A DNA stretch of 64,000 nucleotides. Source: Pandoraea pnomenusa. GTDB lineage: Bacteria; Pseudomonadota; Gammaproteobacteria; Burkholderiales; Burkholderiaceae. The stretch is from assembly GCF_000767615.3 (NCBI RefSeq), contig NZ_CP009553.3, forward strand, positions 310,001 through 374,000, read 5' to 3'. A program made the position numbers and the translations under genes. The notes below the pieces were generated by a model. It saw only the letters and a program-made list of their open reading frames with translations. It was not told the DNA's origin and made no database searches. Shown piece after piece: positions 24,101 through 48,776 of the stretch. The first letter of the stretch is position 1. Each line of letters starts with the position of its first letter.

Positions 24101-24436
24101 CCGGGCACCGAGCGGCGGCTGACCCACCTGGCCCCGGGCCGGCGACCGACCGATGCGGCAACCGTGGGACAACTCGCAGGCATGCAGGCGGGCATCGATC
24201 AGGTCGCCAAGCGCGCCTATTCGGGAATCGCGGCCGCCACGGCGCTCGCGATGATTCCGGAAGTGGACCCGGGAAAGCGCGTTGCGTTGGGCGTGGGCAC
24301 CGCGACTTTCCAGGGGCGGGCGGCGACCTCGATCGGCGCTTCGGTACGCTTTACCGACAATCTGAAGGCCCGGCTCGGCGTGGGAATCAGCGGTCAGGGC
24401 AATACCTACGCTGCCGGTGTCTCATATCAATGGTGA
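18128..24436 (+). CDS. Trimeric autotransporter adhesin, 3' part with YadA anchor
   Basis: This 2102-residue open frame continues the adhesin. Its apparent GTG start lies mid-repeat and it has no signal peptide, so it is the displaced remainder of the gene at 15849, not a separate protein. It contains many stalk modules (KPVKLTNLADGES-type necks alternating with SLSTG-rich coiled-coil segments). A second head-like stretch, 'ATAIGIDAAASGESSVALGE' and following repeats, lies about residues 1915-1995. The last about 85 residues are a YadA anchor domain ('IDQVAKRAYSGIAAATALAM' through the terminal 'GVSYQW') that would form the 12-stranded trimeric pore. It ends 58 bases from the convergent TonB receptor gene. 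Confidence 0.85.
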   Translation: MKLTNVADAERENDAVNFGQLSAATRDVTSLSSGLSTTQSNLALLSSGAQHAITYDDTTRELATLGGVGAKPVKLTNLADGESVTDAVTFGQLRATKSHVASVASHLDSRVGSLSTGMATLADGALTLAESLTSLSTSFDSHAGSVSTGLSTTNSHIASLTRDLDGRVSSLSSGVATLADGALTLAESLTSLSTSFDSHAGSVSTGLSTTNSHIASLTRDLDGRVSSLSSGVATLADGALTLAESLTSLSTSFDSHAGSVSTGLSTTNSHIASLASDLDGRVVSLSTSFESHAVSLSTGAVTLAESLTSLSTSFDSHASSLSTGLSTMSSNLALLSGGIQHAITYDDETRERATLGGAQAKPVKLTNLADGESTTDAVTFGQLSATNSHIASVASDLEGRVVSLSTGAATFAEGVTSLSTSFESHAVSLSTGAVTLAESLTSLSTSFDSHASSLSTGAVTLAESMTSLSTSFDSHASSLSTGLSTMSSNLALLSGGIGHAITYDDETRERATLGGAQAKPVKLTNLADGESTTDAVTFGQLSAAKSEIASAASDLDGRVGSLSSGVATLADGALTLAESLTSLSTSFDSHASSLSTGAATLAESMTSLSTSFDSHASSLSTGLSTMSSNLALLSGGIEHAITYDDGTRERATLGGAQAKPVKLTNLADGESTTDAVTFGQLSTTNSHITSLTGNLVSHVDSLSTGVLSLAQGLTSLSTGFENRALSLSTSVETHAGSLSSGLSTMESNLALLSSGMPHTITYDDTTRERVTLGGAQAKPVKLTNLADGENTTDAVTFGQLSTTNSHITSLTGNLVSHVDSLSTGVVSLAQGLTSLSTGFENRALSLSTSVETHAGSLSSGLSTMESNLALLSSGMPHTITYDDTTRERVTLGGAQAKPVKLTNLADGENTTDAVTFGQLSTTNSHITSLTGNLVSNVDSLSTGAMALTEGLTSLSAGLSQMAELASATENFVQFDDERRLKVTLGGRRATKPVSLSNVADGTKATDAVTVRQLSVTNSNVMQMSTGMANFEANVASLSTGVSEIDSTVDVLVSEIAVAVQYDNAAKTKLRLGGLSKTPVSLGNVAEGLRPNDAVNVAQLGATNSNVASLSTGLASLIVPSVQLRSGKGRKHRTFILGGVPTTGENNADGPVTLTNVADGFNPDDVASYRQLVATNSNVGSLSTGMIAVGARVDSLSTGLGHIQQSVGAIETGAVLYDDTTHATLTLGGTTAKPSVRILNVADGVEASDAVNFRQLSDVNDQSASQIALVDDHVAQFSATVDAHLDSLSTGLRALASLSSGTGSGVVYDGDRRDKVTFGDSGVAPVALTNVADGAHRFDAVNFGQLSTTNNNVLQLSTGMTAFEDSLGSLTSALGSVDGTVEKLVSEAAVAVQYDTPNRTKLRLGGLTKTPVLVANVAAGVAPTDAVNAGQLAATNSDVASLSTGLAGLITPDTALRSGHDVRHPKLLLGGRAALHSDGSPAPVTLDNVADGEHAGEAVNFGQLSATNSHMGSISTSIDRQVGSLSTGLRKIEKLAGEADNGVFYDDASHSTLTLGDTVTAKPVTLTNLADGAKPSDAVTFRQLSATNRSVDALSTGLLATHEHMRSLSTGMTRAEKRLTTLESNSDDYVGYDGQARDTLTLGDTVSRRAVRVRNVADGVEAGDAVNVAQLSQTNRNVGSLSTGLDLSRRALTSLASDVEHSARYDDASRSQLTLGGTGATAPVTLTNLADGKRPADAVNYGQLSETNSHVSSLSTGLSKLASMSPSGSQAVRYDDPMHARVTLGGADAHSGVVLGNLAAGVAGTDAVNVSQLQATDSRVTSLSTAASTGISDALSAVSRLASRLGEGTEASSSPVAPGEAGVPAVPVESMVKASTRRMLGAPAPQPAPASVSYVGVNDNGAPKGNLRGEGASGKRATAIGIDAAASGESSVALGESAKASGMNATAIGHAAAATQAGAVALGEGAMASGANAVAIGANAVASEPGTVSIGAPGTERRLTHLAPGRRPTDAATVGQLAGMQAGIDQVAKRAYSGIAAATALAMIPEVDPGKRVALGVGTATFQGRAATSIGASVRFTDNLKARLGVGISGQGNTYAAGVSYQW
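18461..18973 (+). repeat. Three tandem 171-bp (57-residue) repeats
   Basis: Three near-identical units start at 18461, 18632 and 18803. Each encodes a block with 'ATLADGALTLAESLTSLSTS' followed by a SHAGSVSTGLSTTNSHIASL-type segment. The spacing is exactly 171 bases, so copy changes would keep the frame. Differences between units are few single-base changes, which points to recent duplication. Confidence 0.9.
18990..20170 (+). repeat. Variant stalk repeats of the adhesin
   Basis: Three longer related blocks carry 'SLSTGLSTMSSNLALLSGG', 'HAITYDD', 'ERATLGGAQAKPVKLTNLAD' and 'GESTTDAVTFGQLS' around 19090, 19565 and 19985. They are separated by variable numbers of the LAES(L/M)TSLSTSFDSHASSLSTG unit. 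DNA identity between blocks is high. This is the least stable part of the gene for assembly. Confidence 0.8.
20181..20894 (+). repeat. Two 357-bp (119-residue) tandem repeats plus a partial third
   Basis: Units start at 20181 and 20538, and a third copy begins at 20895 and fades after about 20935. The two full copies differ by only a few bases (for example GTGTTATCG versus GTGGTATCG). The unit encodes a SLSTG-rich coil, a 'SNLALLSSGMPHTITYDDTT' segment and a LTNLADGENTTDAVTF neck. The length is a multiple of three. Confidence 0.9.
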
Positions 24437-24494: not shown

Positions 24495-26669
24495 TCAGAA
24501 TCCGAAGTGCCCCTGCACGTAGACCATGCGCGGCGCACCGACCATGATGCCGCCGTTCTGGTCGGTGTTGCGCGTGTAGAAGCGCTTGTCGAACACGTTG
24601 TTCACGCCCACCGTCACGTCGGCATTCTTGTAGAACGGCAGCTTGTACATCGCTTGCAGGTTCCAGGTGCGATAGCCGGGCACCTTGCCGTTCATGCCGT
24701 CGGCGGAGGGCGCCTCGGTGTTCGCCAGATCCGAGTACTGCGAGCTCTGATGCGTGGTCGAGACGTTGAATGTCCATTGGCCGACGGTGTAACGCGCGCC
24801 CAGCGTATCGGTGAAGCGCGAGTAGAACGGCACGTCGAGGCCGGCGGTCGCGCCCGACTTCTGGATGGCGCGCACGTACGTGAAGTTGGCGTAGAGGTTC
24901 AGGCCGCGCAGGGCGCTGTCGCGATCGAACGTGTAGTCGACGGCGGTTTCGACACCGTCGTGGTTCGTCGCGCCGATGTTCTGGAACGTGGCCGGGCTCA
25001 CGCCGGGCACCTGCAGAATCTGGTTGTCGAACTTCATCTTGAACGCTGTCAGTTCGGCCTTCCAGCGCGCGTCCGTCCAGCGCGTGCCGATTTCATACGT
25101 GCGCGCCACTTCCGGCTGCAGCGGGTTCGATGCCGACATCGAATTGAGCTGCGTGTTCTGCACCGGACCGAATGACGTGCTGTAGTCGGCGAAGATCGTC
25201 CATGCGCTGTTGACCAGATACGACAGATTGACCGACGGCAGCGGCTTGTTGTTGTCGGTACGGTAAGTGGCCCCCGAGGTCTTGTCCACCCGCTGCGAGC
25301 GGATCATTTCGTAACGCACACCCGGCGTGAAGCGCCAGTTGCCCCAGGCCATGCGGTCGTCCAGGTAGAAGGCGTTGGCGCTCGTGTAGTTGTAGAACGT
25401 TTGCGTGGCGGTATTGCGCCCGGTCGCGAGGTTCGTGCTCCAGCTGTTGTCGTCGCCGCGTTCGCGAATGAAGCGGTAGCCCACGGTCACGTCGTGCGCG
25501 GTCGGGCCGACGAACAGGCGCTGCGTGAAGCGCGGCTCGACGCCGAACGTCTGGTAATTGCGCGGCTGGTGCATGAGCGTGAGCGACGACGTGGGGCTGG
25601 TCAGCGTACTCTGGCGATAGCTCTCGTTGTAGAACGTGCGGATCTCGAACTCCTGCGTCTCGGAGATCGTGTTCAGATAGCCGAAGTCGAGGCCGGTGCG
25701 GTTGCCGCTCCAGTAGTCGTTCGGCCGCGTGTTCTGGAACGGGTCGGCGTCGTATTGCGCGGCGGTCAGTCCGCCGGGCGTCCTCGACTTGGCGTCGAAG
25801 TACGAAACCTTGCCGTACACCTGCTGGCTCGGCGTGATGTCGTAGCGCCATTTCAACGCCAGATCGTTCACGTGCTCGTCGCTGCCCTTGCGCCAGTCGC
25901 GCCCCGCCATGCCCGAATACAGCAGCGCGAGGCCCAGGCCGTTGTCCATCTGCGTGCCCAGGAATACGCCGTACTGCGTGTTGGCGCCGCCGCCGGAGGT
26001 GTACATGTTCTGACGTACGGTCGCATCGGCGCTCAGCCCCGGCTTGTTGGGGATCGAGCGCGTCTTGAAGTTGATCACGCCGCCCACGTTCTGCGGGCCG
26101 TAGCGCACGGCGCCGCCGCTGCGCACCACGTCGATGCTCTCGATGTTGAAAAGGCTCACCGGCGCGAACGACAGCTGCGGCTGACCGTAAGGGGCGACGG
26201 CGAGCGGAATGCCGTCGAGCAGTACGGTCGAGCGCGGCGAGAAGCGCCCGGTCAGGCCGCGCACGCCAATGTTCAGGGAGATCGCGCTGCCGGCAGTGCT
26301 GGAATTGTCGGTGGACTGCACGCCGGGAATGCGCCGCATCACGTCGCCGATGCTCGCGGCACCCGAGGCCTCGATGTCCTGCTTCTTCACGACCGTGCGC
26401 GCGCCAGGGAACGTCTTGGCGCTGTTGTCCAGTCCGGTGCCGAGCCAGTCGCCCGACACGTTCACCGCGCCGAGTTCGACGTCGGCCTTCGCTTCGGGGG
26501 CGCTGGCCGGGACACCCGCGGCGCTGGCCGGTTGCGCATGCGCCGTGCCGGGCGTACCCACGAGCAGCGCGGCGGCGCCGGCGAGCAACGTGAGGGCGCC
26601 GAGGGCACCGCGGGAAGCATGAGCAGCGTGGGATGCTTGGGAAGCACGGCGACTTGCGGACATCTTCAT
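24495..26669 (-). CDS. TonB-dependent outer-membrane receptor, FecA-like
   Basis: This 724-residue outer-membrane receptor would import an iron chelate using TonB energy. It has a signal peptide (hydrophobic 'GALGALTLLAGAAALLVGTP', cleavage after AHA or AQA), then a plug domain. Plug motifs include 'DVMRRIPGVQSTDNSS', 'NIGVRGLTGRFSPRSTVLLDG' and 'VRYGPQNVGGVINFKTRSIP', which most resemble FecA-type siderophore receptors. A 22-strand barrel region follows, ending in a C-terminal Phe (YVQGHFGF), typical of outer-membrane proteins. No fecI/fecR, siderophore synthesis or ABC transporter genes lie beside it. A Fur-box-like site lies about 130 bases upstream. The ligand cannot be told from sequence. 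Confidence 0.9.
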   Translation of the reverse strand: MKMSASRRASQASHAAHASRGALGALTLLAGAAALLVGTPGTAHAQPASAAGVPASAPEAKADVELGAVNVSGDWLGTGLDNSAKTFPGARTVVKKQDIEASGAASIGDVMRRIPGVQSTDNSSTAGSAISLNIGVRGLTGRFSPRSTVLLDGIPLAVAPYGQPQLSFAPVSLFNIESIDVVRSGGAVRYGPQNVGGVINFKTRSIPNKPGLSADATVRQNMYTSGGGANTQYGVFLGTQMDNGLGLALLYSGMAGRDWRKGSDEHVNDLALKWRYDITPSQQVYGKVSYFDAKSRTPGGLTAAQYDADPFQNTRPNDYWSGNRTGLDFGYLNTISETQEFEIRTFYNESYRQSTLTSPTSSLTLMHQPRNYQTFGVEPRFTQRLFVGPTAHDVTVGYRFIRERGDDNSWSTNLATGRNTATQTFYNYTSANAFYLDDRMAWGNWRFTPGVRYEMIRSQRVDKTSGATYRTDNNKPLPSVNLSYLVNSAWTIFADYSTSFGPVQNTQLNSMSASNPLQPEVARTYEIGTRWTDARWKAELTAFKMKFDNQILQVPGVSPATFQNIGATNHDGVETAVDYTFDRDSALRGLNLYANFTYVRAIQKSGATAGLDVPFYSRFTDTLGARYTVGQWTFNVSTTHQSSQYSDLANTEAPSADGMNGKVPGYRTWNLQAMYKLPFYKNADVTVGVNNVFDKRFYTRNTDQNGGIMVGAPRMVYVQGHFGF

Positions 26670-26928: not shown

Positions 26929-27081
26929 ACGGGCCATCGGTGGGGGAGTGGCGGCGAACAGGCGGCACATCGGCCGAAGGGGGGCGGTCGGGGCGTGCGG
27001 CACCGCGTACGCTCCGGCGGGTCGCCGAGGGCCGCTACGGCGCCAGTTGCCGCCCGCGATGGCGGATTATCCAGTTTTGCT

Positions 27082-27109
27082 AATCAATCGCCCAGAATCG
27101 ATTGATTGT
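27082..27109 (+). promoter_or_regulatory. Candidate LysR operator upstream of hpaH
   Basis: AATCAATCG (27082-27090) and CGATTGATT (27099-27107) form a perfect 9-bp inverted repeat with an 8-base spacer. The overlapping 18 bases 27092-27109 recur exactly, inverted, at 36244-36261 beside the LysR gene. The site lies 87 bases before the hpaH start, a normal place for a LysR-type activator site. Confidence 0.75.
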
Positions 27110-27195
27110 GGATGAAGCGGCGCGGCCGCAAGAATAGAGGCTGACTACGGACAAGACGCGTCGCCCGCGCCGGGCGGCGCCATGGAGACAACGCG

Positions 27196-28005
27196 ATGCC
27201 CAGGCTCGACGCCTCGACTCACCAGGCCCTCGCCCGCGAGCTGCACGAGGCCGAGCGCACCCGCACGCCGGTGATGCAATTTTCCCGTCGCTACCCCGAG
27301 ATGACCATCGCCGACAGCTACGCGATCGCGCAGGCTTGGCTGGCGCTGAAGTTCGCGCAGGGGCGGCGGACGATCGGCCACAAGATCGGGCTGACCTCGC
27401 GCGCCATGCAGGTGGCGGCGCAGATCACCGAACCCGATCACGGCACGCTGCTCGACGACATGCTCGTGGCCGACGGCGCCACGCTCGAGGCGTCGCGCTT
27501 CATCGTGCCGCGTCTCGAAGTGGAGCTGGCGTTCATTCTGGCCAAGCCGCTCAAGGGCCCGGGCGTGACACTCTTCGACGTGCTCGACGCCACCGCGTGG
27601 GTCACGCCCGCGCTGGAGCTGATCGATGGCCGCATCGAGCTGTTCGATCGCGAGACGAAAGCGCCGCGCAAAGTGTTCGACACGATTGCCGACAACGCCG
27701 CGAATGCCGCCGTGATCCTGGGCGGACGCCCGGTGAAGCCGGACGCCATCGACCTGCGATGGGCGGGCGCGCTGCTCTATCGCAACGGCGTGATCGAAGA
27801 GTCGGGGCTGAGCGCGGCGGTGCTCAATCATCCCGGTAACGGCATCGCCTGGCTGGCCAACAAGCTGGGCGCCTTCGACGAAGGCCTGCAGGCCGGCGAG
27901 ATCGTGCTCGCGGGCTCGTTCACGCGACCGGTGGCCTGCGTCGCCGGTGACGTCTTCCATGCCGACTACGGCCCGCTCGGCGCGATCGGCGTGCGCTTCG
28001 TCTGA
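27196..28005 (+). CDS. hpaH: 2-oxo-hept-4-ene-1,7-dioate hydratase
   Basis: HpaH adds water to 2-oxo-hept-4-ene-1,7-dioate in the homoprotocatechuate (4-hydroxyphenylacetate) meta-cleavage pathway. The 269-residue protein shows the hydratase family pattern (MhpD/HpaH group): '[12 protein letters not shown]', '[13 protein letters not shown]', '[14 protein letters not shown]' with the acidic metal ligands, and a C-terminal '[22 protein letters not shown]'-type region. A GGAGA box precedes the ATG by seven bases. It is the first gene of the hpaHIEDG operon, and its product is the substrate of the HpaI aldolase encoded next. Confidence 0.93.
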
Positions 28006-28070
28006 GCCTGCGCGTCTGCACCGGCTTGTTCCCCCACGTCTTCCCGTCACCTCTCACGGAGCCCGACGAC

Positions 28071-28853
28071 ATGAAAACGCCTCCGAATCCCTTCAAGCAG
28101 GCCCTCGCCCGCGGCGAGCGCCAGATCGGCCTGTGGATGGGACTCGCCACGCCCTACGCCGCGGAGCTCTGCGCGGGCAGCGGCTTCGACTGGCTGGTGA
28201 TCGACGGCGAACACGCGCCCAACGACCTTCGCACCATGCTCGCGACGTTGCAGGCGATGGCGCCTTACCCTTCGCATCCGGTGGTGCGCCTGCCGCACGG
28301 CGATGCCACGCTCATCAAGCAGGTGCTGGAGATCGGCGCGACGACGCTGCTCGTGCCGATGGTCGAGTCGGCGCAAATGGCGCGCGCCCTCGTGAGCGCC
28401 ACGCGCTATCCGCCGCACGGCGTTCGCGGCGTGGGCAGCGGTCTGGCGCGCTCGTCGCGCTGGAACCGCTATGAGGATTATCTGCACGCGGCGAACGACA
28501 CCACGTGCCTGCTCGTGCAGGTGGAGACGGCCGACGCGCTTGCGCAGGTGGATGCCATCGCCGCGGTGGACGGCGTGGACGGCGTGTTCATCGGCCCGGC
28601 CGATCTTGCCGCGTCGATGGGATATCTCGGTCAGGCCACGCACCCCGAGGTGCGCAAGGCCATCGAGGACGGCGTCTCGCGCATCCGCCGCGCTGGCAAG
28701 GCGGCAGGCATTCTATGCGTCGACGAGACGCTGGCGCGCCATTACCTCGATGCAGGCGTGACCTTCATGGCCGTCGGCATCGACACGACCCTGCTCGCGA
28801 GCGCCAGTCGCGCGCTGGCCATGAAATTCGCCCCCGGCTCGCGCGGCGACTGA
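28071..28853 (+). CDS. hpaI: 4-hydroxy-2-oxoheptanedioate aldolase
   Basis: HpaI is a class II, metal-dependent aldolase that splits 4-hydroxy-2-oxoheptanedioate into pyruvate and succinic semialdehyde, the last step of the pathway. The 260 residues show HpcH/HpaI family motifs: '[20 protein letters not shown]', '[13 protein letters not shown]', 'VVRLPHGD', 'VQVETADAL' with the metal-binding Glu, and '[14 protein letters not shown]'. The ATG at 28071 after an ACGGAG-like box gives the usual N-terminus; an upstream in-frame start at 28026 lacks a better site. It lies 65 bases after hpaH. Confidence 0.94.
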
Positions 28854-28923
28854 GCGTATCGCCATTGTCCTTCGGGCGCGCGACCGCGGTGCGCGCCTCG
28901 CCCCCTTCCCAACGAGAGATGGC

Positions 28924-30399
28924 ATGAGTGCTTCCCGTATTGACGTCGCCGGCGTATCCGTGTCGCCGGACCACTATATCGATGGCCGCCGCGTGGCGTC
29001 CGACGACACGTTCGCCTGCGTTTCCCCGATCGACCAGCGCCATCTCGGCGACATCTCGAGCGGCGCTCAGGCGCATGTCGATGCGGCGGTGACGTCGGCC
29101 TCGCTGGCGTTTCCCGCATGGGCGGCGCTCGGGGCCGAGGGACGACTGCCGTTCCTTCGGCGCTTTGCCGAGGCGATCGGTCGCCGCGCCGACGCGTTCG
29201 CCACGCTCGAGAGCCATGATGCCGGCGTGTTGCGCTCGCGCATGGCGCATGGCGTCGTGCCGCGCGCCATGCAGAACATTGCGTGGTTCGCCGAGCATGC
29301 GCTGTCGTTGCAGGACCGGACGATCGACACGCCGCAGGCCCGCCATTGGGTGCGCCACGATCCGGCGGGTGTCGTTGCCGTGATCACGCCGTGGAATTCG
29401 CCGCTGCTGCTCGCGACGTGGAAGATCGGTCCGGCCCTGGCGGCAGGCAACACCGTCGTGCTGAAGGCGCCCGAATGGGCGCCGCTCACGTCGTCGCTGC
29501 TTGCCGACTGTGCGCAGGAGGCGGGATTGCCCCCGGGCGTGTTCAACCTGTTGCAGGGCGCGGGCGCGCTGACTGGCGCGGCGCTCGTGAGCGATGCCCG
29601 GCTGGCGCGCATCTCCTTCACGGGCTCGGTCGCCACCGCGAAATGGATCGCGAAGACGGCGGCGGAGAATCTCGTGCCGTGCAGCCTGGAACTTGGCGGA
29701 AAGTCGGCGTTCATCGTGCTGGCGGACGCCGATCTCGATGCGGCGGCCGCGACGGCCGCACTGATGTATCGCAATGCCGGACAGGTGTGCCTGGCCGGCA
29801 CGCGGCTGCTGGTTCACGCCGACATCGCGCCGGCCTTCATCGAGAAATTGCGCCAGATCGTCGAGCGTCTGGTGGTGGGCGATCCGCGCGACGCCACGAC
29901 CGAAGTCGGGCCAATCATCCACATGCGGCAACTGGAGCGCGTGCAGGGCTTCGTCGAACGGGCCGTCGCGGGCGGCGCGCGGGTACTGTGGGGCGGCGCG
30001 CGGCACCCCTACGGCGAACAGTACTTCGCACCGACGCTGCTCACCGATCTGCATCAGCAGGACGAGATCGTGCAGCAGGAAGTGTTCGGGCCCGTGCTCA
30101 CCCTGCAGACCTTCGCCAGCGACGATGAGGTGGTCGACATGGCCAACGGCACCGATTACGGCCTGGGCGGCGTGTGCTACGGCGAAGAGGCACACGCCAT
30201 GGCGATCGCGCAACGCGTGCGCACGGGCTTCATCTGGATCAACAGCTTCGGCATTCGCGATCTGGCCGCGCCGTTCGGCGGCATCAAGCGTTCGGGCATC
30301 GGCCGCGAAGGGGGGGACTGGAGCTTCGAATTCTTCTGCGACGTGAAGGACGTCGTAGTGCCCAGGCAACCGTTCAAGGCGAGCTTCAGCCATCGCTGA
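28924..30399 (+). CDS. hpaE: 5-carboxymethyl-2-hydroxymuconate semialdehyde dehydrogenase
   Basis: HpaE oxidises the ring-cleavage semialdehyde to 5-carboxymethyl-2-hydroxymuconate with NAD. The 491-residue protein is a complete aldehyde dehydrogenase: 'ITPWNSP' with Asn158, the cofactor Lys181 in 'VVLKAPEW', 'FTGSVATAKWI', the general base Glu256 in 'LELGGKSAF', and the nucleophile Cys289 in 'NAGQVCLAGTR'. The C-terminal 'PFGGIKRSGIGREGG' is intact. Family assignment is certain; the substrate is inferred from the flanking hpa genes. Confidence 0.93.
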   Translation: MSASRIDVAGVSVSPDHYIDGRRVASDDTFACVSPIDQRHLGDISSGAQAHVDAAVTSASLAFPAWAALGAEGRLPFLRRFAEAIGRRADAFATLESHDAGVLRSRMAHGVVPRAMQNIAWFAEHALSLQDRTIDTPQARHWVRHDPAGVVAVITPWNSPLLLATWKIGPALAAGNTVVLKAPEWAPLTSSLLADCAQEAGLPPGVFNLLQGAGALTGAALVSDARLARISFTGSVATAKWIAKTAAENLVPCSLELGGKSAFIVLADADLDAAAATAALMYRNAGQVCLAGTRLLVHADIAPAFIEKLRQIVERLVVGDPRDATTEVGPIIHMRQLERVQGFVERAVAGGARVLWGGARHPYGEQYFAPTLLTDLHQQDEIVQQEVFGPVLTLQTFASDDEVVDMANGTDYGLGGVCYGEEAHAMAIAQRVRTGFIWINSFGIRDLAAPFGGIKRSGIGREGGDWSFEFFCDVKDVVVPRQPFKASFSHR

Positions 30400-30440
30400 G
30401 CGCCGCACACGACAAGACAACGAGACGAGAGGAGAGCAGC

Positions 30441-31304
30441 ATGGGACAGATCGTCGGCGCGGCGCTGGTGTCGCACCACCCCGGCCTGATGCAGTGTGAG
30501 GAATTCCGCGTGTTGCAGGGCGCGGGGGCGGATTCGGACCTGATTGCCGGGTACGCGCGTGTGCGCGAGCGTATCGTGGCGGCGCGCCCGGACGTCATCG
30601 TGATCTTCGATTCGCACTGGTTCACCACGGGCTATCACCTGATCGACGGCGGCGCGCATTACGCCGGCATGTACATCTCCGACGAGATGCCGTGGTACCT
30701 GCATGGCGTGCCTTACGACTATCGCGGCCATCCGGAGCTGGCGCTGACCGTGGAGGCCGTCGCCCGCGAGCGCGGGGTGCGTGCGCGCGCGGTGCAGCAC
30801 CCGGACCTGCCGCGCCATTACCCGACGATCAACGTGATCAGGCAGATGCGTCTGGACGCCTGGCCGATCGTCACCGTGAGTTCGTGCCAGAACTGCGAGA
30901 CGCAGCACTTCCTGCAATCGGGCGAGGTGATCGGCGAAGCCATTCGCCGCAGCCCGCTGCGGGTGGTGATGCTTGCCTCGGGCGCGCTGAGCCACAGGTT
31001 CAACGGCATCGACTGGAAACCGAATCATCCGCGCATTTTTCACGAAAGCAACGTGTCGCGTCCGGAGAACATCGAGAGCGACAAGCGCGCAATCGCCGCA
31101 ATGCGCGAGGGACGCCATGACCGGATTCTCGCCGATTGGGACGAGGACTACCGCAAGCGCCCGTGGGAGGCGCACGGCGCGCACTATCTCCAGATGGTCG
31201 GGGCGCTGGGCGGGGAGGCCTGCCGCAGCGCCGGTACGGTGCTCTCCGACTACGAGAACGCGCGCGGCACGGGCAACGTGCACATCTGGTTCGACACCAT
31301 CTGA
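30441..31304 (+). CDS. hpaD: 3,4-dihydroxyphenylacetate 2,3-dioxygenase (class III extradiol)
   Basis: HpaD opens the ring of homoprotocatechuate between C2 and C3. The 287-residue protein belongs to the LigB-type class III extradiol dioxygenases: the N-terminal 'GAALVSHHPGLM' and 'IVIFDSHWFTTGYH' carry likely iron-ligand and catalytic His residues, and 'MLASGALSHRFNG' lies in the C-terminal half. The ATG at 30441 follows a GAGGAGAG box. It lies 41 bases after hpaE and 11 before hpaG, so it is co-transcribed. Another catecholic substrate is possible, but the set of neighbours favours homoprotocatechuate. Confidence 0.92.
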   Translation: MGQIVGAALVSHHPGLMQCEEFRVLQGAGADSDLIAGYARVRERIVAARPDVIVIFDSHWFTTGYHLIDGGAHYAGMYISDEMPWYLHGVPYDYRGHPELALTVEAVARERGVRARAVQHPDLPRHYPTINVIRQMRLDAWPIVTVSSCQNCETQHFLQSGEVIGEAIRRSPLRVVMLASGALSHRFNGIDWKPNHPRIFHESNVSRPENIESDKRAIAAMREGRHDRILADWDEDYRKRPWEAHGAHYLQMVGALGGEACRSAGTVLSDYENARGTGNVHIWFDTI

Positions 31305-31315
31305 CGAGGCCATCC

Positions 31316-32266
31316 ATGGATTTCGAATTTCCGTTGCGTGAGTTACCTGCCGTGATGCGGGGGCCGCGCGTCGAGCGCCGACGCGTGCTGCTGGGCGGGA
31401 GCGCCTTCTGGGGCACCCTGATCGAGGACGGCGCGCAGCACGGACTTCTGCGGCTCGACGACGGGCGCATCGTCGACCCGCAGACGGTCGCGCACCTGCC
31501 GCCGGTGGACCCCTCGAAAATCATCGCCGTGCATATCTCCTATCGCTCGCGTAGCATGGAGACGCGCAACAAGCCCAGGCCGACCGACACCCCGACGTAT
31601 TTCACCAAGCCGCCGACTTCGCTCAACGGGCACGGCGGGCAGATTCTCAAACCGGCGGACTGTCGCTATCTGAATTACGAAGGCGAGTACGCCGTGGTGA
31701 TCGGGCGCACGTGCCGCAATGTGTTGCCCGACGAGGCATGGGACTACATCGAGGGATTCTGTCCGGCGCTCGACATGGGGCTGCAAGACTTCCGCGACAC
31801 GGACCAGGGCTCGATGCTGCGGGTCAAGGGCGCGGATACGCTGCTGCCCATCGGACCGGGCATCGTGCGTGGCGTGAACCTGTTCGAGCAGACGTTGCGC
31901 ACCTATCGCAACGGTCGGGTGGTGCAGGAGGCGCACATCGGCGACGAGACGATCTGGGGGCCGCATTACGTGATCGCGGACATTGCGCGGCACATCACGC
32001 TGGTGCCCGGCGACGTGATCCTGATGGGCACGCCGTGCCACTCGCGCTCGGTGGATGCGGGCGACCTCGTGGAATGCGAGATCACCGGACTGGGACGCCT
32101 CTCGGGGGCCGTGGTCCGGATCGAGGCGCCGCGCGCGGCGGCGCTGGGAGTGGGGCACGCGCCGGGCGACAGCCCCGAAGTGCGCCGCGTGGCGCTGGGA
32201 TTCGACGAGCGGGTGCCGGAGCGGTTCAAGGAAAACTACCGGCTTGCCGCGAGGCAGCCGGGGTGA
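31316..32266 (+). CDS. hpaG: Fumarylacetoacetate hydrolase family protein, HpaG-like
   Basis: The 316-residue protein has a single FAH domain: 'IIAVHISYRSRSMETRNKP', 'DTPTYFTKPPTSLNGHGG', 'LNYEGEYAVVIGRTCRNV' with the metal-binding Glu pair, 'GFCPALDMGLQDFRDTDQGS' and 'GDVILMGTPCHS'. In the 4-hydroxyphenylacetate pathway HpaG decarboxylates and isomerises the product of HpaF. E. coli HpaG is a duplicated two-domain protein of about 430 residues, so this single-domain form may do one step or act as an oligomer. The ATG is 11 bases from the hpaD stop. Confidence 0.88.
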   Translation: MDFEFPLRELPAVMRGPRVERRRVLLGGSAFWGTLIEDGAQHGLLRLDDGRIVDPQTVAHLPPVDPSKIIAVHISYRSRSMETRNKPRPTDTPTYFTKPPTSLNGHGGQILKPADCRYLNYEGEYAVVIGRTCRNVLPDEAWDYIEGFCPALDMGLQDFRDTDQGSMLRVKGADTLLPIGPGIVRGVNLFEQTLRTYRNGRVVQEAHIGDETIWGPHYVIADIARHITLVPGDVILMGTPCHSRSVDAGDLVECEITGLGRLSGAVVRIEAPRAAALGVGHAPGDSPEVRRVALGFDERVPERFKENYRLAARQPG

Positions 32267-32329
32267 GGCGAGCGGCGCGAACGGAATGCGCGGCGCCACG
32301 GGAATGCATCAAAAGACAGGAGTGAACGG

Positions 32330-33319
32330 ATGAAGGTGACGATCATTGGCGCGGGCGCCATTGGCGGCTTGCTCGGCACGAAGCTCGCCGCCGCGGGCGA
32401 GGCGCAGGTCAGCGCGCTGGCGCGCGGCGCGACACTGGCGGCGCTGCGCGAGCGCGGCTGGCGGGTGAAACAGGGCGACGCGCTGACCGCCGCGCCGGTG
32501 GCAGCCGCGCACGCGCTCGACGATGCCGCGAAGCTCGGCGTGCAGGATCTGGTGATCATCGCGGTCAAGGGGCCCGCGCTCGCGCAGGTCGCCGCGTCGA
32601 TGGCGCCGCTCATCGGAACGCAGACCATGGTGCTGCCGGCGATGAATGGCGTGCCGTGGTGGTTCTGCCACGGGGTGGCGCCGTTCGGCGACGCACCCCT
32701 TGCCAGCGTGGATCCGGACGGGGCGATCGGTGCTGCCATTCCGATGGCGAGCGTGATCGGCTGCGTGGTGCACGCGAGCGCGGCAACGCCCGAGCCGGGG
32801 CTGGTCGATCACAGGATGGGGCGCGGGCTCATCGTCGGCGAGCCGGGTGGCGGCACCAGCGAGCGTGTGCAGCGCCTGGCCGGCGTGCTCGCGCGCGCAG
32901 GTTTCGAAGTGAAAGCCTCGGAGAACGTGCGGCTCGATATCTGGTACAAGCTTTGGGGCAACCTCACGATGAACCCCGTGTCTGCCATCACCGGCGCCAC
33001 GATCGACCGGCTGCTGGACGACCCGCTCGTGCGCGCATTCTGCTCGTCGGCCATGCGCGAGGCGGCGGCGATCGGCGCGAAGATCGGCTGCGTCATCGAC
33101 CAATCGCCGGAAGATCGTCACGAAGTGACGGCCAAACTCGGCGCATTCAAGACGTCGATGCTGCAGGACGTGGAAGCGCATCGTCCCATCGAACTCGACG
33201 CCCTGGTGAGCGTGGTGCGCGAAATCGGCGAGCGTGTGAACGTGGCGACACCGAACATCGATGCGCTGCTCGGTCTCACGCGCCTGTTCGGGCGCGTGCA
33301 CGGGTTGTACCCGCAGTGA
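32330..33319 (+). CDS. 2-dehydropantoate 2-reductase (PanE/ApbA) family protein
   Basis: This 329-residue NAD(P)H-dependent reductase begins with the Rossmann motif 'MKVTIIGAGAIGGLLGTKLA'. It carries the PanE/ApbA core ('DLVIIAVKGPALAQV', 'PAMNGVPWWF', 'KLWGNLTMNPVSAITGAT') and a C-terminal catalytic domain with 'RHEVTAKLGAFKTSMLQDVE'. Ketopantoate reduction serves pantothenate synthesis, but the gene is last in a catabolic operon. A 2-oxo acid of the pathway or a related acid may therefore be its substrate (inference). It follows hpaG by 63 bases with an AGGAGTG box and ends before a strong terminator. Confidence 0.85.
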   Translation: MKVTIIGAGAIGGLLGTKLAAAGEAQVSALARGATLAALRERGWRVKQGDALTAAPVAAAHALDDAAKLGVQDLVIIAVKGPALAQVAASMAPLIGTQTMVLPAMNGVPWWFCHGVAPFGDAPLASVDPDGAIGAAIPMASVIGCVVHASAATPEPGLVDHRMGRGLIVGEPGGGTSERVQRLAGVLARAGFEVKASENVRLDIWYKLWGNLTMNPVSAITGATIDRLLDDPLVRAFCSSAMREAAAIGAKIGCVIDQSPEDRHEVTAKLGAFKTSMLQDVEAHRPIELDALVSVVREIGERVNVATPNIDALLGLTRLFGRVHGLYPQ

Positions 33320-33358
33320 GCGTTTCGCCGGATCGCACCGCATCCGGCGCATCGAAAA

Positions 33359-33390
33359 CAAGGGGCGCCTCGGCGCCCCTTGTGCTTTTT
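33359..33390 (+). terminator. Terminator of the hpa operon
   Basis: CAAGGGGCGCC (33359-33369) pairs perfectly with GGCGCCCCTTG (33372-33382), then TGCTTTTT. It closes hpaHIEDG-panE before the convergent transporter gene. Confidence 0.9.
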
Positions 33391-33470
33391 CGACACGGAC
33401 TGCGATCGATCGGCCTGGACATCCCATGACCCGACGAACCACTGGCCTGACGGTTCTGCCGCTGCCGGCA

Positions 33471-33510
33471 CATCGCTGCATTTCGCGGCATATCGCGGCA
33501 TATCGCGGCA
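33471..33510. repeat. Four 10-bp tandem repeats downstream of the hpa operon
   Basis: Units CATCGCTGCA, TTTCGCGGCA, TATCGCGGCA and TATCGCGGCA run head to tail at 33471-33510. They lie between the hpa terminator and the stop codon of the convergent MFS gene. Same period and copy number as the array at 26889, but another sequence. Function unknown. Confidence 0.7.
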
Positions 33511-33522
33511 TCGCCCGACGCC

Positions 33523-34809
33523 TCAGCGCACGCCCGTGTGTCGGTACACCTGACTCAGCGCGATCAGACCCGCGGCGGCGGCGGCCATCATGTAGAAGCT
33601 CGGAGCGAGCTTGCTGCCCGTCGCATCGATCAGCCACGTCAAAATGAACGGCGCGAAGCCGCCGAAGCATGTCACCGACAGGTTGTACGAGAGGGAGAGA
33701 CCCGTCGTGCGCGTCTTCACCGGGAAGATCTCCGAGGCCAGCGCCGGCAGCGGGGCGAAATACATCGTCATCAGCACGCCGAGCAACGTCTGGAGCGCAA
33801 GCATCACGCCGAAGCCGGGATACGTGGAGAGCACCCAGAACATCGGCCAGATCAGGACCAGCAACGCGCCCGCGGCAATCATCATTGGCCTGGCGCGGCC
33901 CACCCGGTCCGACCATGCCCCCACCCACGGCGAGAGCAGCATCTGCACGATGCCGGTCGCGACCGTCGCCGCGAACGCGACCGACGCCGGCAGTCCCAAC
34001 TGCTTGATCGCGTACGTCGGCATGTAGAGCACGAGGTAAGTCGAGACGGTGGCGACGACCACCGCGCCAACGGCCAGCAGCAAGCGCATCTTCTGATGGC
34101 CCAGCGTGTCGCGCAGCGGCGTCTCGGTCGGCTCGGCTTCCAGGAACTCGGGCGTCTCGCTCACGTGCCGCCGAATGTAGTACGCCACCGGGCCGATCAG
34201 CAGGCCGAACAGGAACGGCACGCGCCAGCCCCAGCTCTGCATCTGCTCGGGCGACAGCGTGCTCGTGAGCACGGCGCCGAAGCCCGCGGCGAGCAGCGTC
34301 GTCAGCCCCTGGCTGGCCACCTGAAAGCTCGCGAAGAAGCCGCGCCGCTGCGGAGCGTGCTCGGCCAGGAACGCGGTCGCGCTGCCGAACTCGCCGCCCG
34401 CCGAGAATCCCTGGATCATTCGCGCCAGCACGATGCCCACGGGCGCGAGCAGGCCGATCGTCTCGTACGTCGGCATGAACGCGATGATCGCCGTGCCGAC
34501 CATCATCAGCAAGATGGTGAGCGTGAGCGCTTCGCGGCGTCCCCGGCGATCCGCATATACGCCGATCACGATGGCGCCGAGCGGTCGCATGAAGAACGAC
34601 ACGCCGAACGTGCCCAGTGTGAGCAGCAACGAGGTCGTGTCGTCGTGCGTGGGGAAGAACAGCTTCGCGATCGTGACCGCGAAGAAGCCGTACACCACGA
34701 GGTCGAACCATTCGAGCGCGTTGCCGATGGACGCGGATATGACCGCTCGCCAGGGGTGCGAAGCGGTGTTGGCGCCGATGGGGGTATCGGCGGCAGTGGC
34801 AGTCGTCAT
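33523..34809 (-). CDS. MFS transporter, metabolite:H+ symporter type
   Basis: This 428-residue inner-membrane protein has about 12 hydrophobic segments and the signatures of the MHS (ProP/KgtP/citrate) group: 'ISASIGNALEWFDLVVYGFF' at the N-terminus, 'GVYADRRGRREAL' in the first loop, 'MIQGFSAGGEFGSATAFLAE' and 'SDRVGRARPMM' in the second half. It would import an organic acid with protons. I place the start at ATG 34809, just after a GGAGAG box, instead of the upstream in-frame codon at 34863. It lies 88 bases after the aminotransferase gene on the same strand. A substrate such as an aromatic acid is inferred from context only. Confidence 0.88.
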   Translation of the reverse strand: MTTATAADTPIGANTASHPWRAVISASIGNALEWFDLVVYGFFAVTIAKLFFPTHDDTTSLLLTLGTFGVSFFMRPLGAIVIGVYADRRGRREALTLTILLMMVGTAIIAFMPTYETIGLLAPVGIVLARMIQGFSAGGEFGSATAFLAEHAPQRRGFFASFQVASQGLTTLLAAGFGAVLTSTLSPEQMQSWGWRVPFLFGLLIGPVAYYIRRHVSETPEFLEAEPTETPLRDTLGHQKMRLLLAVGAVVVATVSTYLVLYMPTYAIKQLGLPASVAFAATVATGIVQMLLSPWVGAWSDRVGRARPMMIAAGALLVLIWPMFWVLSTYPGFGVMLALQTLLGVLMTMYFAPLPALASEIFPVKTRTTGLSLSYNLSVTCFGGFAPFILTWLIDATGSKLAPSFYMMAAAAAGLIALSQVYRHTGVR

Positions 34810-34897
34810 GTTCTCTCCAGTCATTGTTATGTTGCGGGCATGCTTATGCTTCTCCGGAGGCATGCGCTCCGTGATCCGTTGGCGGCCTGTGCGAGGC

Positions 34898-36097
34898 TCA
34901 GTCGTTCGTCAGCACCCGCGCGATGGCTTGCGCCACCGTGTCGACGTTGCGCGTGTTCAGCCCCGCCACGCACATGCGCCCGGAGCGCAGCAGGTAGACA
35001 CCGTGCGTTTCGCGCAAGGCGTCGGCCTGCGCGGCGCTCAGTCCCGTGTAGGTGAACATGCCGCGCTGCGCGAGATAGCGAGAGAGCTTCTCGCCGCTCA
35101 CGTGGGGCGCGAGACGTGCATGAATCTGCGCGCGCATCGTGGCAATGCGGGTGCGCATGCCGTCGAGTTCGTCTTCCCACGCGCGACGCAACGTGGGGGT
35201 CGTGAGCACCTGCGCGACGAGTCGCGCACCATGAGTGGGCGGGTTGCTGTAGTTCGCGCGCACGGTGCCCGTGAGCTGTCCGAACACGCGCGATGCGTCA
35301 TCCGCCGTGGCGCACACGACCGACAACGCGCCGCATCGCTCGCCGTACAGCGAGAAATTCTTCGAGAACGAGTTGGCGACGACCGTCGGCACGCCCGCCT
35401 CGGTCAGGGTGCGCACGGCGAATGCATCGGCGTCCAGACCGTCGCCGAAGCCCTGGTAGGCCATGTCGACGAAGGCGATCAGGCCGCGCGACTGTAATAC
35501 CGGTGCCAGCGTGCGCCATTGCGCCTGCGTGAGGTCGACCCCGGTGGGGTTGTGGCAGCAGGCGTGGAGCAGCACGATGCTGCGCGAGGGCAGGGCCGCG
35601 ATCGTCTCGAGCATGGCGTCGAAGCGCAGGCCGCCGGTGGCATCGTCGTAGTACGGGTACGACTGCACCGCAAAGCCGGCGCTCTCGAAGACCACGCGAT
35701 GGTTGTCCCAGCTCGGATCGCTGATCCAGATGCCGCTGTCCGGGAAGTAGCGCCGCAGGAAGTCGGCCCCCACCCGCAGCGCACCGCCGCCGCCCAGGGT
35801 CTGCAGTGTGGCGATGCGCCGCTCGCGCCGCGCGGCGCTGTCGTCGCCGAAGACGAGCGCCTGCACCGCGTCGCGATAGGCCTGCGTGCCCGCCATCGGC
35901 AGATACGGACGTGGGCCGATGTCGGCGAGCACGGATGCCTCCGCTTCGCGGACCGCCTGCATGACCGGCAGGCGGCCGGCATCGTCGAAATAAATGCCGA
36001 TGGACAGATTGACCTTGTGCTGGCGGGGATCCTGTCCGAAGGCTTCGTTCAGGCCGAGGATCGGATCGCCGGGATAGGCGTCGACGTGGGAAAACAT
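34898..36097 (-). CDS. tyrB: Aromatic amino acid aminotransferase (TyrB/AspC family)
   Basis: This 399-residue class I PLP aminotransferase has the aspartate/aromatic subgroup pattern. It starts 'MFSHVDAYPGDPILGLNEAF', with 'YLPMAGTQAYRDAVQALVFG', 'HACCHNPTGVDLT' (Asn183), 'VDMAYQGFGDG' (Asp211) and PLP-binding Lys246 in 'NSFSKNFSLYGERCG' with Arg254. The start at 36097 gives the normal length; an in-frame extension to 36247 overlaps the putative operator and is unlikely. It is divergent from the LysR gene and followed by the transporter gene. It could convert tyrosine to 4-hydroxyphenylpyruvate, feeding aromatic catabolism, but AspC-like activity cannot be excluded. Confidence 0.92.
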   Translation of the reverse strand: MFSHVDAYPGDPILGLNEAFGQDPRQHKVNLSIGIYFDDAGRLPVMQAVREAEASVLADIGPRPYLPMAGTQAYRDAVQALVFGDDSAARRERRIATLQTLGGGGALRVGADFLRRYFPDSGIWISDPSWDNHRVVFESAGFAVQSYPYYDDATGGLRFDAMLETIAALPSRSIVLLHACCHNPTGVDLTQAQWRTLAPVLQSRGLIAFVDMAYQGFGDGLDADAFAVRTLTEAGVPTVVANSFSKNFSLYGERCGALSVVCATADDASRVFGQLTGTVRANYSNPPTHGARLVAQVLTTPTLRRAWEDELDGMRTRIATMRAQIHARLAPHVSGEKLSRYLAQRGMFTYTGLSAAQADALRETHGVYLLRSGRMCVAGLNTRNVDTVAQAIARVLTND

Positions 36098-36213
36098 GCG
36101 GGGTTTCGCTCCTTGCCGCCCGGTCCGCCGAGTTCGGCATACCGCGCGGACATAAAGGGGGGGCAGGGGCCGGAGGGCGCCGGGAGACCGACGATCCGGT
36201 ACGGAATTTTGAA

Positions 36214-36261
36214 AATCGATTGTGGGCGACGGCCCTTTACGGAACAATCAATCGATTCTGG
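36214..36261. promoter_or_regulatory. Candidate LysR operator in the lysR-tyrB divergent region
   Basis: AATCGATTGT (36214-36223) faces ACAATCAATCGATTCTGG (36244-36261), an interrupted inverted repeat. The second arm is identical over 18 bases, inverted, to 27092-27109 before hpaH. It lies 36 bases from the LysR start and about 150 from the aminotransferase start, so it could serve both. Confidence 0.75.
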
Positions 36262-36296
36262 TCCATTCGTAAGCCGAACTTGATAATCGACCCGTC

Positions 36297-37229
36297 ATGC
36301 CCCTGACCCGCGTAACGCTCCGGCAGTTCGAAGCCCTGGTGGCCATCGCCGAGCTGCACAGTTTTGCCGAAGCCGGCCATCGCATGGGCCTCACGTCGTC
36401 CGCCGTGAGTCAGCTCGTCGCGGAACTGGAATCGGTGCTGGGCTTTCGTATCTTCGATCGCACGACACGTCGCGTGGCGCTGTCGAGCGCCGGGCGCGAC
36501 TTCCTCGCCTCGGCCGAATCGGTGCTGCGGCATGTCCAGGCCGCCGAGAAGACGGCCGATGACCTGCGCAATCGCGCGGCGGGTATCGTGCGCGTGGGCG
36601 CGCCGCTGGTCATCGCGAGCATGGCGCTGCCGTCGGCGATTCGCGAGTACGCGCAAACGCGCCCGAAGGTCGTGGTGCGCGTGGTCGACACCCCCGTCGA
36701 TGGACTCATCGATCGCGTGGCCAACGGCGATCTGGATCTCGCCATCGGCCCGAATCGTTCGACGGGGACGCAGGTGGCCGGCGCGCCCGCGTTCGACAGC
36801 CCGTGGGTGCTGTGGTGTACGCCGGACCACCCGCTGGCACGGCGTCGTCGCGTGCGATGGACCGATCTGCGAGACACGCCGCTCGTTGCCGCCGGGCGCG
36901 ACCACGAGCGCAGCGTTGCGCAGATGCGGCTGTCCGCGCCGCCCGACGCGCGCATCACGCCCATCGACGTCGTCGACAACGTGACGACGGCGCTCGGCGT
37001 GGCGGCACAGGGACTGGCCGCCACGCTCACGCCAGGCTACGTGGCGGCGCTCGCGCATTCGTTCGGCCTCGTCATGCGGCGGGTCGTGTCGCCGGAGACG
37101 ATTCGCCAGGTCTGCGTGTACCGGCCGCTCTCGCGCGCGGCGTCGCCGGCGGCCGAAGGATTCGCACAGTTCCTGATGGAATGGCTGCCTCAGTGGAACG
37201 CGCGGGTCATGGCGTCGCAGCAAGTGTGA
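36297..37229 (+). CDS. LysR-type transcriptional regulator
   Basis: This 310-residue regulator has an N-terminal winged HTH (about residues 6-65: 'LRQFEALVAIAELHSFAEAG', 'SSAVSQLVAELESVLGFRIF', 'DRTTRRVALSSAGRDFLASA'), a linker helix and a periplasmic-binding-like effector domain from about residue 95. It is divergent from tyrB-MFS. The identical 18-bp site here and upstream of hpaH suggests that it controls both transcription units, with a pathway acid as co-inducer (inference). Close homologues regulate many different catabolic genes, so the effector is open. Confidence 0.92.
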   Translation: MPLTRVTLRQFEALVAIAELHSFAEAGHRMGLTSSAVSQLVAELESVLGFRIFDRTTRRVALSSAGRDFLASAESVLRHVQAAEKTADDLRNRAAGIVRVGAPLVIASMALPSAIREYAQTRPKVVVRVVDTPVDGLIDRVANGDLDLAIGPNRSTGTQVAGAPAFDSPWVLWCTPDHPLARRRRVRWTDLRDTPLVAAGRDHERSVAQMRLSAPPDARITPIDVVDNVTTALGVAAQGLAATLTPGYVAALAHSFGLVMRRVVSPETIRQVCVYRPLSRAASPAAEGFAQFLMEWLPQWNARVMASQQV

Positions 37230-40077: not shown

Positions 40078-40476
40078 ATGCTCTATCTGTGGATCAAGGC
40101 CGTACATCTCATCGCCGTCATCACGTTCATCGCCGGGATGGTGACGATGGCGTTGGGCGGACGCCTGGCGCAGCCCGAATGGCGCCGAATCGCACGCCGT
40201 GCGGATTACGGGCTGGCGTCGCCGGCGCTGATCGTGGTGTGGATCAGCGGCCCGGTGCTGGCCGTCATGGCGAACTGGTGGAGCGCGCCGTGGTTCATGG
40301 CGAAGCTGGTGTTCGTGCTGATCATCTCGGCGCTGCATGGACGGTTGTCGGCCACGCTGCGGCGGCTCGAACGAGACGGCGCAGCCACGTCGCCGCCGCT
40401 GTTCCGCCGTGCATTGCCCGTGGTCTGGGTGTCGATGGCGATCATCGTGGCGCTCGTCATCGTCAAGCCGTTCTGA
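40078..40476 (+). CDS. CopD-like integral membrane protein
   Basis: This 132-residue protein has about four hydrophobic helices. It begins 'MLYLWIKAVHLIAVITFIAG' with an early His, the pattern of the CopD/HemJ superfamily of small membrane proteins, and later has 'WFMAKLVFVLIISALHGRLS'. Roles in copper uptake or haem redox steps are known for relatives, but nothing here decides between them. The start ATG is seven bases after a GAGGAG box. The AraC-type gene follows on the same strand. Confidence 0.75.
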   Translation: MLYLWIKAVHLIAVITFIAGMVTMALGGRLAQPEWRRIARRADYGLASPALIVVWISGPVLAVMANWWSAPWFMAKLVFVLIISALHGRLSATLRRLERDGAATSPPLFRRALPVVWVSMAIIVALVIVKPF

Positions 40477-40603
40477 GCGTTTCGAGACGTATCGCGCGGG
40501 GATGATCCGGAAGGTACCCGGCTTGGTCTCCGGGCCCGCCGGTGTTACGCTGGCGACATCGCCAAAAACGTCCCAAAACTACGTCTTTCAAGGCCTGGTG
40601 CCG

Positions 40604-47523: not shown

Positions 47524-48732
<1,209 letters not shown>

Positions 48733-48748
48733 TTCGCGGATTCGATGG

Positions 48749-48776
48749 AACGGGCGCCGGTTCGCCGGCGCCTGTT
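48749..48776 (+). terminator. Attenuator-like hairpin between tuf and rpsJ
   Basis: GGCGCCGG (48753-48760) pairs with CCGGCGCC (48765-48772) around TTCG; outer bases extend the stem to about 12 bp with one G-T pair. Only a short TGTTT follows, so termination is probably partial. Confidence 0.6.

Follow-up and report, generated by a model that had tools for sequence, protein, structure and literature searches.

A 45-bp element shared by the hpaH and tyrB promoters of Pandoraea pnomenusa is the likely operator of a LysR-type regulator encoded beside one of them

A 64,000-nucleotide stretch of Pandoraea pnomenusa DNA (contig NZ_CP009553.3, positions 310,001 to 374,000; hereafter the window) carries the same 18-bp sequence in two promoter regions about 9 kb apart. 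One copy lies upstream of hpaH, the first gene of the ring-cleavage operon hpaHIEDG-panE, and the other lies between lysR and the divergent tyrB-MFS operon. Does this repeat mark the operator of a single regulator, and is that regulator the LysR protein encoded beside the second copy? We consider it highly probable that the shared element, which extends well beyond 18 bp, is the operator of the LysR encoded at 36297-37229 and that this protein activates both hpaHIEDG-panE and tyrB-MFS. The features on which the argument turns are as follows (window coordinates).

27065-27109, + strand: 45-bp putative LysR operator upstream of hpaH, with the upstream half GATTATC..AAT at 27065-27088, a linker, and the 18-mer at 27092-27109
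27106-27135, + strand: putative hpaH promoter, with -35 TTGTGG at 27106-27111 and -10 AAGAAT at 27130-27135 (18-nt spacer in the window)
36244-36288, - strand (towards tyrB): 45-bp putative LysR operator between tyrB and lysR, with the upstream half at 36288-36265 and the 18-mer at 36261-36244
36219-36247, - strand: putative tyrB promoter, with -35 TTGTTC at 36247-36242, a 17-nt spacer, and -10 CACAAT at 36224-36219
36297-37229, + strand: lysR, a LysR-type regulator (NCBIfam LysR models) and the proposed binder of both operators

The 18-mer ACAATCAATCGATTCTGG occurs exactly at 36244-36261 (+) and 27092-27109 (-), as first described, and these two sites are its sole exact copies in the genome (5,389,285 bp). 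No other window position comes within 3 mismatches of it (expectation, 0.06); four further places in the genome match with 3 mismatches, and a reversed control pattern gave one match. The preliminary description called it very unlikely that 18 bases would match by chance in 64 kb, which overstated the case. Order-1 random 64-kb sequences with the make-up of the window contained a mean of 0.47 exact 18-mer repeats, with at least one in 12 of 30, and the window itself holds many others, almost all of which fall in an EF-Tu-like duplication or a single repeat-rich open reading frame (ORF). The exact 18-bp repeat by itself is weak evidence; what takes the match beyond chance is the longer element to which it belongs, its location in two promoters, and its conservation.

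The bases just upstream of the 18-mer are identical at 20 of 30 positions between the hpaH and tyrB sites (10 of 200,000 random window pairs did as well); downstream of it 9 of 30 bases agree. The shared unit is about 45 bp long, GATTATC-N-AGTT-N2-GCT-N-A-N2-AAT-N-G-N-CCAGAATCGATTGATTGT, and its two copies align gap-free in the same orientation relative to hpaH and tyrB. The 18-mer first taken for the whole operator is the downstream half of this unit. The lysR-side copy lies 8 bp from the lysR start codon. A profile search of the genome (trained on both sites; 150 of 1036 candidates were scored) returned two matches at E ≤ 10, of which the hpaH operator is the match at genome positions 337064-337110. 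No other exact copy and no third profile match at this threshold were found, in answer to the question of genome frequency raised in the preliminary description.

Conservation was followed in 32 Pandoraea genomes, the source genome included. A LysR orthologue (88 to 100% identity) is present in 27 of them, and the same 27 hold an hpaH orthologue at 92 to 100%; of the 19 named loci found with this LysR, 15 belong to Pandoraea, at 88 to 94% identity. The 18-mer upstream of hpaH is present in all 27 genomes with at most one mismatch, and the full 45-bp hpaH element has 0 to 4 mismatches to its consensus. On the lysR side, the element has 0 to 2 mismatches to consensus in each of the 22 genomes that keep tyrB; the motif is retained at both sites in close relatives, where its absence would have refuted the preliminary description. 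The five genomes of the genus without LysR yielded nothing within 2 mismatches of the 18-mer. Three related Pandoraea genomes (G009, G010, and G027) contain one additional match, at 2 mismatches. It was rejected as an operator: it lies at the start of a 725-amino-acid ORF, is without the upstream half, and has a matrix score of -50.8, compared with 76.3 to 89.6 for member sites. Three genomes outside the genus (G040, G051, and G052) also contain matches with 2 mismatches. We note that ten Pandoraea genomes (G001, G007, G011, G013, G018, G020, G021, G024, G030, and G031) encode a second LysR that is 49 to 52% identical to that of the window.

Within the element, conservation is concentrated in two halves. 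Pairwise identity among the 27 hpaH sites averages 0.95 and 0.97 in the halves, against 0.43 in the flank upstream and 0.69 between -35 and -10 (a stretch cut at columns that include two -10 bases). For the 23 intact lysR-side sites, the corresponding means are 0.96 and 0.97 in the halves versus 0.84 and 0.89 outside. At both promoters the element ends in a -35-like TTGT. AAGAAT stands at a 17-nt spacer from TTGTNN in 25 of the 27 hpaH sites, is replaced by AACAAT in one (L091), and lies one base further on in the window; TTGTTC-N17-CACAAT is found in 23 of 23 intact lysR-side sites. A consensus promoter scanner called no promoter in the hpaH or tyrB region, as may be expected of weak, activator-dependent promoters; both hpaH boxes are weak.

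The preliminary description drew attention to a perfect inverted repeat at hpaH, which is present as follows.

27082-27107, no strand: inverted repeat AATCAATCG-N8-CGATTGATT, with arms at 27082-27090 and 27099-27107

This 9-bp form is a peculiarity of the window (1 of 27 hpaH sites), and an 8-bp arm is found in 17 of 27. On the lysR side, the repeat is reduced to a 5-bp arm, AATCG, in 5 of 23 intact sites. The short inverted repeat was rejected as an essential feature of the operator and is not its most conserved part. A second arm was also described at lysR. The sequence AATCGATTGT is indeed present at 36214-36223, and its reading as a partner half-site was discarded: at 36219-36223 it overlaps the conserved -10-like CACAAT, 17 nt from TTGTTC, which is probably the -10 box of tyrB. 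Conservation at tyrB extends past the -10 box (CACAATCGATTTTCAAAATTC in most sites; 36201-36224 of the window, - strand), more than a promoter box needs, and a further LysR contact or a leader element is possible.

This geometry resembles that of a studied LysR protein. According to PMC12016517, the footprint of BhbR1 covers the 54 bp between -22 and -75; its regulatory site lies near -65, and its activation site extends across -35. Here, a regulatory half upstream and a second half that reaches over -35 are predicted from sequence, with two conserved halves at both promoters and transcription starts that are themselves predicted from weak boxes. We infer that a LysR tetramer would occupy the 45-bp element at each promoter. 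One dimer would sit on the upstream half (GATTATC.AGTT..GCTTA..AAT), the regulatory site, centered near -65 when counted from a start placed about 7 nt after the -10 box. The other would sit on the AATCGATTGATTGT half, which runs into the -35 box and would form the activation site. A T-N11-A pattern can be read by eye in the Pandoraea sites as TTnnGCTTAnnAA. With its inducer, probably a hydroxyphenyl-acid intermediate, LysR would then switch on hpaHIEDG-panE and tyrB-MFS, and the copy adjacent to lysR could also serve autoregulation. Such control would link transamination, uptake, and ring cleavage physiologically.

Natural losses of tyrB-MFS bear on whether both operons are targets. The pair lies between panE and lysR in 22 of the 27 genomes and is missing from 5. 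Because only aminotransferases of at most 71% identity were found in these five (one of 69 to 71% remains), the window-type tyrB was probably lost rather than moved. The source genome itself has two more aromatic aminotransferase genes, at 4691155-4692348 (G000:C1; 70% identical to tyrB) and 3469302-3470492 (52%). The losses map to three places on a tree of five joined genes. All five genomes retain the hpaH site. The lysR-side site has 4, 7, 8, and 9 mismatches to consensus in four of them and is not recognizable in the fifth; it is decayed or gone in 4 of 5, and in the genome with 4 mismatches (G002) the 18-mer is nearly intact, which fits a recent loss.

It is unlikely that this LysR controls the hpa operon only, with a lysR-side copy that serves autoregulation and touches tyrB-MFS by accident. 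The retention of the hpaH site in 27 of 27 genomes, including those that lack tyrB-MFS, favors such a restricted role, as do six loci outside Pandoraea in which LysR faces hpaH or hpaE. It is contradicted by the fate of the lysR-side site, which is decayed or lost in 4 of 5 genomes without tyrB-MFS versus 0 to 2 mismatches in 22 of 22 with it. That site is also positioned relative to a conserved -35/-10 pair facing tyrB just as at hpaH, and the same LysR subfamily faces tyrB in 23 outgroup loci. On balance, the losses link the lysR-side site with tyrB-MFS, and the hpaH site with the LysR that was kept.

Loci outside the genus help to separate the regulator from its proposed targets. In a family search of 398 genomes with five candidates scored per genome, 59 genomes contained a LysR at E ≤ 1e-105 (27 Pandoraea and 32 others). 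We mapped 36 non-Pandoraea loci: those 32 plus one from Herbaspirillum (L022), one from a betaproteobacterial metagenome-assembled genome (MAG; L023), and two from Variovorax (L024 and L025). LysR faces tyrB (68 to 70% identity) in 23, with a panE-like gene about 2.2 to 2.4 kb away; it faces hpaH, or hpaE in the MAG, in 6; and it faces neither in 7, namely L182 and six loci whose LysRs (55 to 58%) all face an MFS gene. A weight matrix built from Pandoraea sites alone placed its best match 3 to 9 nt from the start of lysR in every one of the 36 loci. Each of these matches exceeded the best of 60 mononucleotide shuffles, with scores from -20.1 (L023) to 44.5 (L184). In a comparison limited to ten window genes, lysR was the only one common to all 36 loci. 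Since the divergent genes differ while lysR is constant, LysR is the likely binder of the element. The six LysRs facing an MFS gene (L192 to L197) have a recognizable version of the operator 6 to 9 nt from the start codon, and the operator grammar may extend to a wider LysR subfamily.

Slightly less likely again than control of the hpa operon alone is that the element is bound by some other regulator, such as a repressor of the HpaR type or an unlinked global factor, with lysR simply adjoining one copy. HpaR is a repressor of the MarR family. The suggestion draws on precedent, since HpaR is the named regulator of the homoprotocatechuate meta-cleavage genes hpaGEDFHI in Escherichia coli and is proposed as such in Burkholderia xenovorans LB400, according to PMC3053370, and other factors also bind motifs of the TTGATT type (BhbR2 is described as using TTGATT-N5-AATCAA in PMC12016517). 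An outside regulator fits poorly with an element that stays beside the LysR start in every non-Pandoraea locus while the divergent gene changes, and with lysR as the sole common gene of those compared. No hpaR lies beside the hpa cluster, where the eight genes from hpaH to tyrB encode enzymes or transporters and are followed by lysR; no genome-wide search for HpaR was made. An AraC-type gene at 40337-41395 gave a weak HpaA match (25.1 bits; cut-off, 274.65). Coincidence, or a recent functionless copy, would draw on the roughly 0.5 exact 18-mer repeats expected per 64 kb and has a negligible claim, being refuted by conservation at hpaH (27 of 27, between poorly conserved flanks) and at lysR with tyrB (22 of 22) and by the presence of the element at homologous positions in other genera.

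The proposal that one LysR controls hpaHIEDG-panE and tyrB-MFS together, made in the preliminary description, is supported by the layout common to both Pandoraea promoters and by an element that accompanies the LysR subfamily in all 36 outside loci. Several observations weigh against it. The three-genome clade of decayed lysR-side sites also has 2 to 4 mismatches at the hpaH site, a sign of somewhat greater drift throughout this clade. That the lysR-side site decays once tyrB is gone argues against a strong need for that site in autoregulation. The five Pandoraea genomes without LysR also lack this hpaH orthologue (three have a 62% identical paralogue), and because the two are absent together, their joint presence within Pandoraea does not by itself point to LysR. 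The first T of the T-N11-A pattern is absent in Variovorax and in most tyrB-linked outgroup sites. Finally, a profile built from Pandoraea sites alone ranked another place first in Herbaspirillum and gave no match in the beta MAG up to an E value of 10.

The same profile, applied genome-wide, ranked the operator first in the other three of five outgroup genomes (G289, E = 3.3e-4; Variovorax G336, E = 0.001; G335, E = 0.036). An earlier profile, trained also on Variovorax and G289 and not on Herbaspirillum, placed the Herbaspirillum site first (E = 0.29). Weak matches accompanied both searches: short ones at E values of 0.09 to 0.8 in G012, G018, G027, G289, and Herbaspirillum with the earlier profile, and others at 0.2 to 4.2 in G289, Herbaspirillum, and G002 with the Pandoraea-only profile.

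How might one regulator have come to serve both operons? An IQ-TREE phylogeny of 42 LysRs (36 outgroup and 6 of the 27 Pandoraea sequences), rooted on the 55 to 58% group, has the hpa-linked LysRs branching first and not as one clade (approximately unbiased [AU] test, p = 0.027). Pandoraea groups with the tyrB-linked LysRs and L182 (support, 100/98), and a grouping of Pandoraea with the hpa-linked LysRs was rejected (AU p = 0.004). These p values are somewhat optimistic, as the groups were named after the first FastTree tree had been seen, and the hpa-linked L168 is a long branch. The tree is also a limited sample, since 947 homologues at E ≤ 1e-90 were counted among the 8000 candidates scored. 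On the simplest reading, LysR would have been paired with hpa in the ancestor, with both operons in Pandoraea, and with tyrB in the sister lineage, which is probably Paraburkholderia and its kin. We tentatively propose a handover, with doubt slightly outweighing belief, in which the LysR of a divergent hpaH operon gained tyrB at its own promoter; duplicate operators would have kept both targets in Pandoraea, and the sister lineage would pair LysR with tyrB-aldolase-panE. If so, a common inducer (an aryl-pyruvate or a hydroxyphenyl acid) would explain how one sensor fits both operons. G289 was the one tyrB-linked genome scanned genome-wide for further sites, and the best hpaE relative in it shares 39% identity. 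The 23 tyrB-linked outgroup sites are nearer to the Pandoraea tyrB consensus (32 to 38 of 47 positions) than to the hpaH consensus (30 to 33 of 47), and the 6 hpa-linked sites have no clear preference; operator ancestry judged by sequence identity is indecisive.

The position of the panE-like reductase also differs among lineages. It lies inside the hpa operon in Pandoraea, Herbaspirillum (L022), and L191, and beyond tyrB in 23 tyrB-linked loci (L167, L169 to L181, L183 to L190, and L108), about 2.2 to 3.4 kb from lysR. A class II aldolase gene precedes it in both tyrB-linked loci inspected (L108 and L170). One may speculate that its association with hpa in some lineages and tyrB in others reflects common 2-oxo-acid chemistry. 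The Herbaspirillum operon includes a gene for an HpaX-like permease (327.5 bits; cut-off, 615.4), which would point to 4-hydroxyphenylacetate degradation.

The proposed mechanism is textbook LysR control, an ordinary kind of gene regulation. As with CatR, CatM/BenM, and ClcR, a LysR-type regulator is divergent from a catabolic operon, an arrangement described for CatR/ClcR-type genes in PMC6449761. Unlike in those systems, the Pandoraea operator is not of the AkACC-N5-GGTAT type, two operons carry it, one of them 9 kb away, and the functions controlled would be homoprotocatechuate-type ring cleavage and an aminotransferase. The main text of that study, which treats aromatic regulation in 32 Betaproteobacteria, does not contain the terms hpa, homoprotocatechuate, or Pandoraea. 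As in the HpaR system, homoprotocatechuate meta-cleavage genes would be controlled; here, in contrast, a LysR is the linked regulator, the genes run in the order hpaHIEDG-panE, and matches to the HpaE, HpaD, and HpaG models fall below equivalog cut-offs. HmgQ, a LysR-family regulator that PMC5343134 predicts for tyrosine (homogentisate) degradation in Azotobacter and Shewanellaceae, is similar in that comparative genomics assigned a LysR to the breakdown of aromatic amino acids. Its targets, unlike those proposed for the Pandoraea LysR, are hmg/hpd genes. As far as searched, the regulon and operator are not described in the open-licence PMC literature. They would provide a concrete operator and regulator for a homoprotocatechuate-type operon distinct from the HpaR-controlled one and would tie a transaminase and a transporter to ring cleavage. 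One operator across three gene arrangements, together with natural target losses, would offer a clear case of a regulator changing its targets.

The genes assigned to the two operons are as follows.

27196-28005, + strand: hpaH, 2-oxo-hept-4-ene-1,7-dioate hydratase, first gene of the operon (TIGR02312, 428.5 bits; cut-off, 351.5)
28026-33319, + strand: hpaI to panE-like, comprising hpaI, hpaE-like, hpaD-like (~30441-31304), hpaG-like (~31436-32266), and panE-like (32330-33319)
33523-34863, - strand: MFS metabolite/H+ symporter, downstream of tyrB (TcuC-type, 375.3 bits; cut-off, 445; TIGR00883, 373.5 bits; cut-off, 443.45)
34898-36097, - strand: tyrB-like aromatic aminotransferase (NF006719, 571.6 bits; cut-off, 377)

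HpaH and HpaI pass their NCBIfam cut-offs, and the panE-like product passes a 2-dehydropantoate reductase subfamily model. Below equivalog cut-offs are HpaE (479.7 bits; cut-off, 638.35), HpaD_Fe (128.1; 315.95), and the HpaG C-terminal model (159.3; 276.4); the closest PDB relative of the hpaD-like protein is a 3,4-dihydroxyphenylacetate 2,3-dioxygenase (8iq8). The sole HpaB-family (PF03241) match is at genome position 3,650,181, megabases away, and no profile match lies near it. The lysR product matches 50 NCBIfam models, of which the best 25 are all LysR-type regulators, none of them above its cut-off. It belongs to the LysR-type regulators (helix-turn-helix plus substrate-binding domain): family models match along the protein, 120 listed relatives carry PF00126 and PF03466, and its first 66 residues can be aligned with the corresponding region of ten LysR relatives. 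A sequence search of the PDB returned no LysR relative at E ≤ 1e-20, and a plasmid search returned three at 50 to 53% identity, none of them usefully annotated.

A FecA-like TonB-dependent receptor gene (24495-26669) is divergent from hpaH and stands beside it in 26 of 26 fetched Pandoraea stretches (L075 to L100). As for the other exact repeats of the window, a near-exact direct repeat joins ~2260-2925 and 48075-48760. Its first copy lies in and just beyond an EF-Tu-like ORF (1709-2899), and it is probably the usual duplicated tuf gene. Many further exact repeats are internal to a 2102-amino-acid ORF at 18128-24436, mostly at ~18000-21000.

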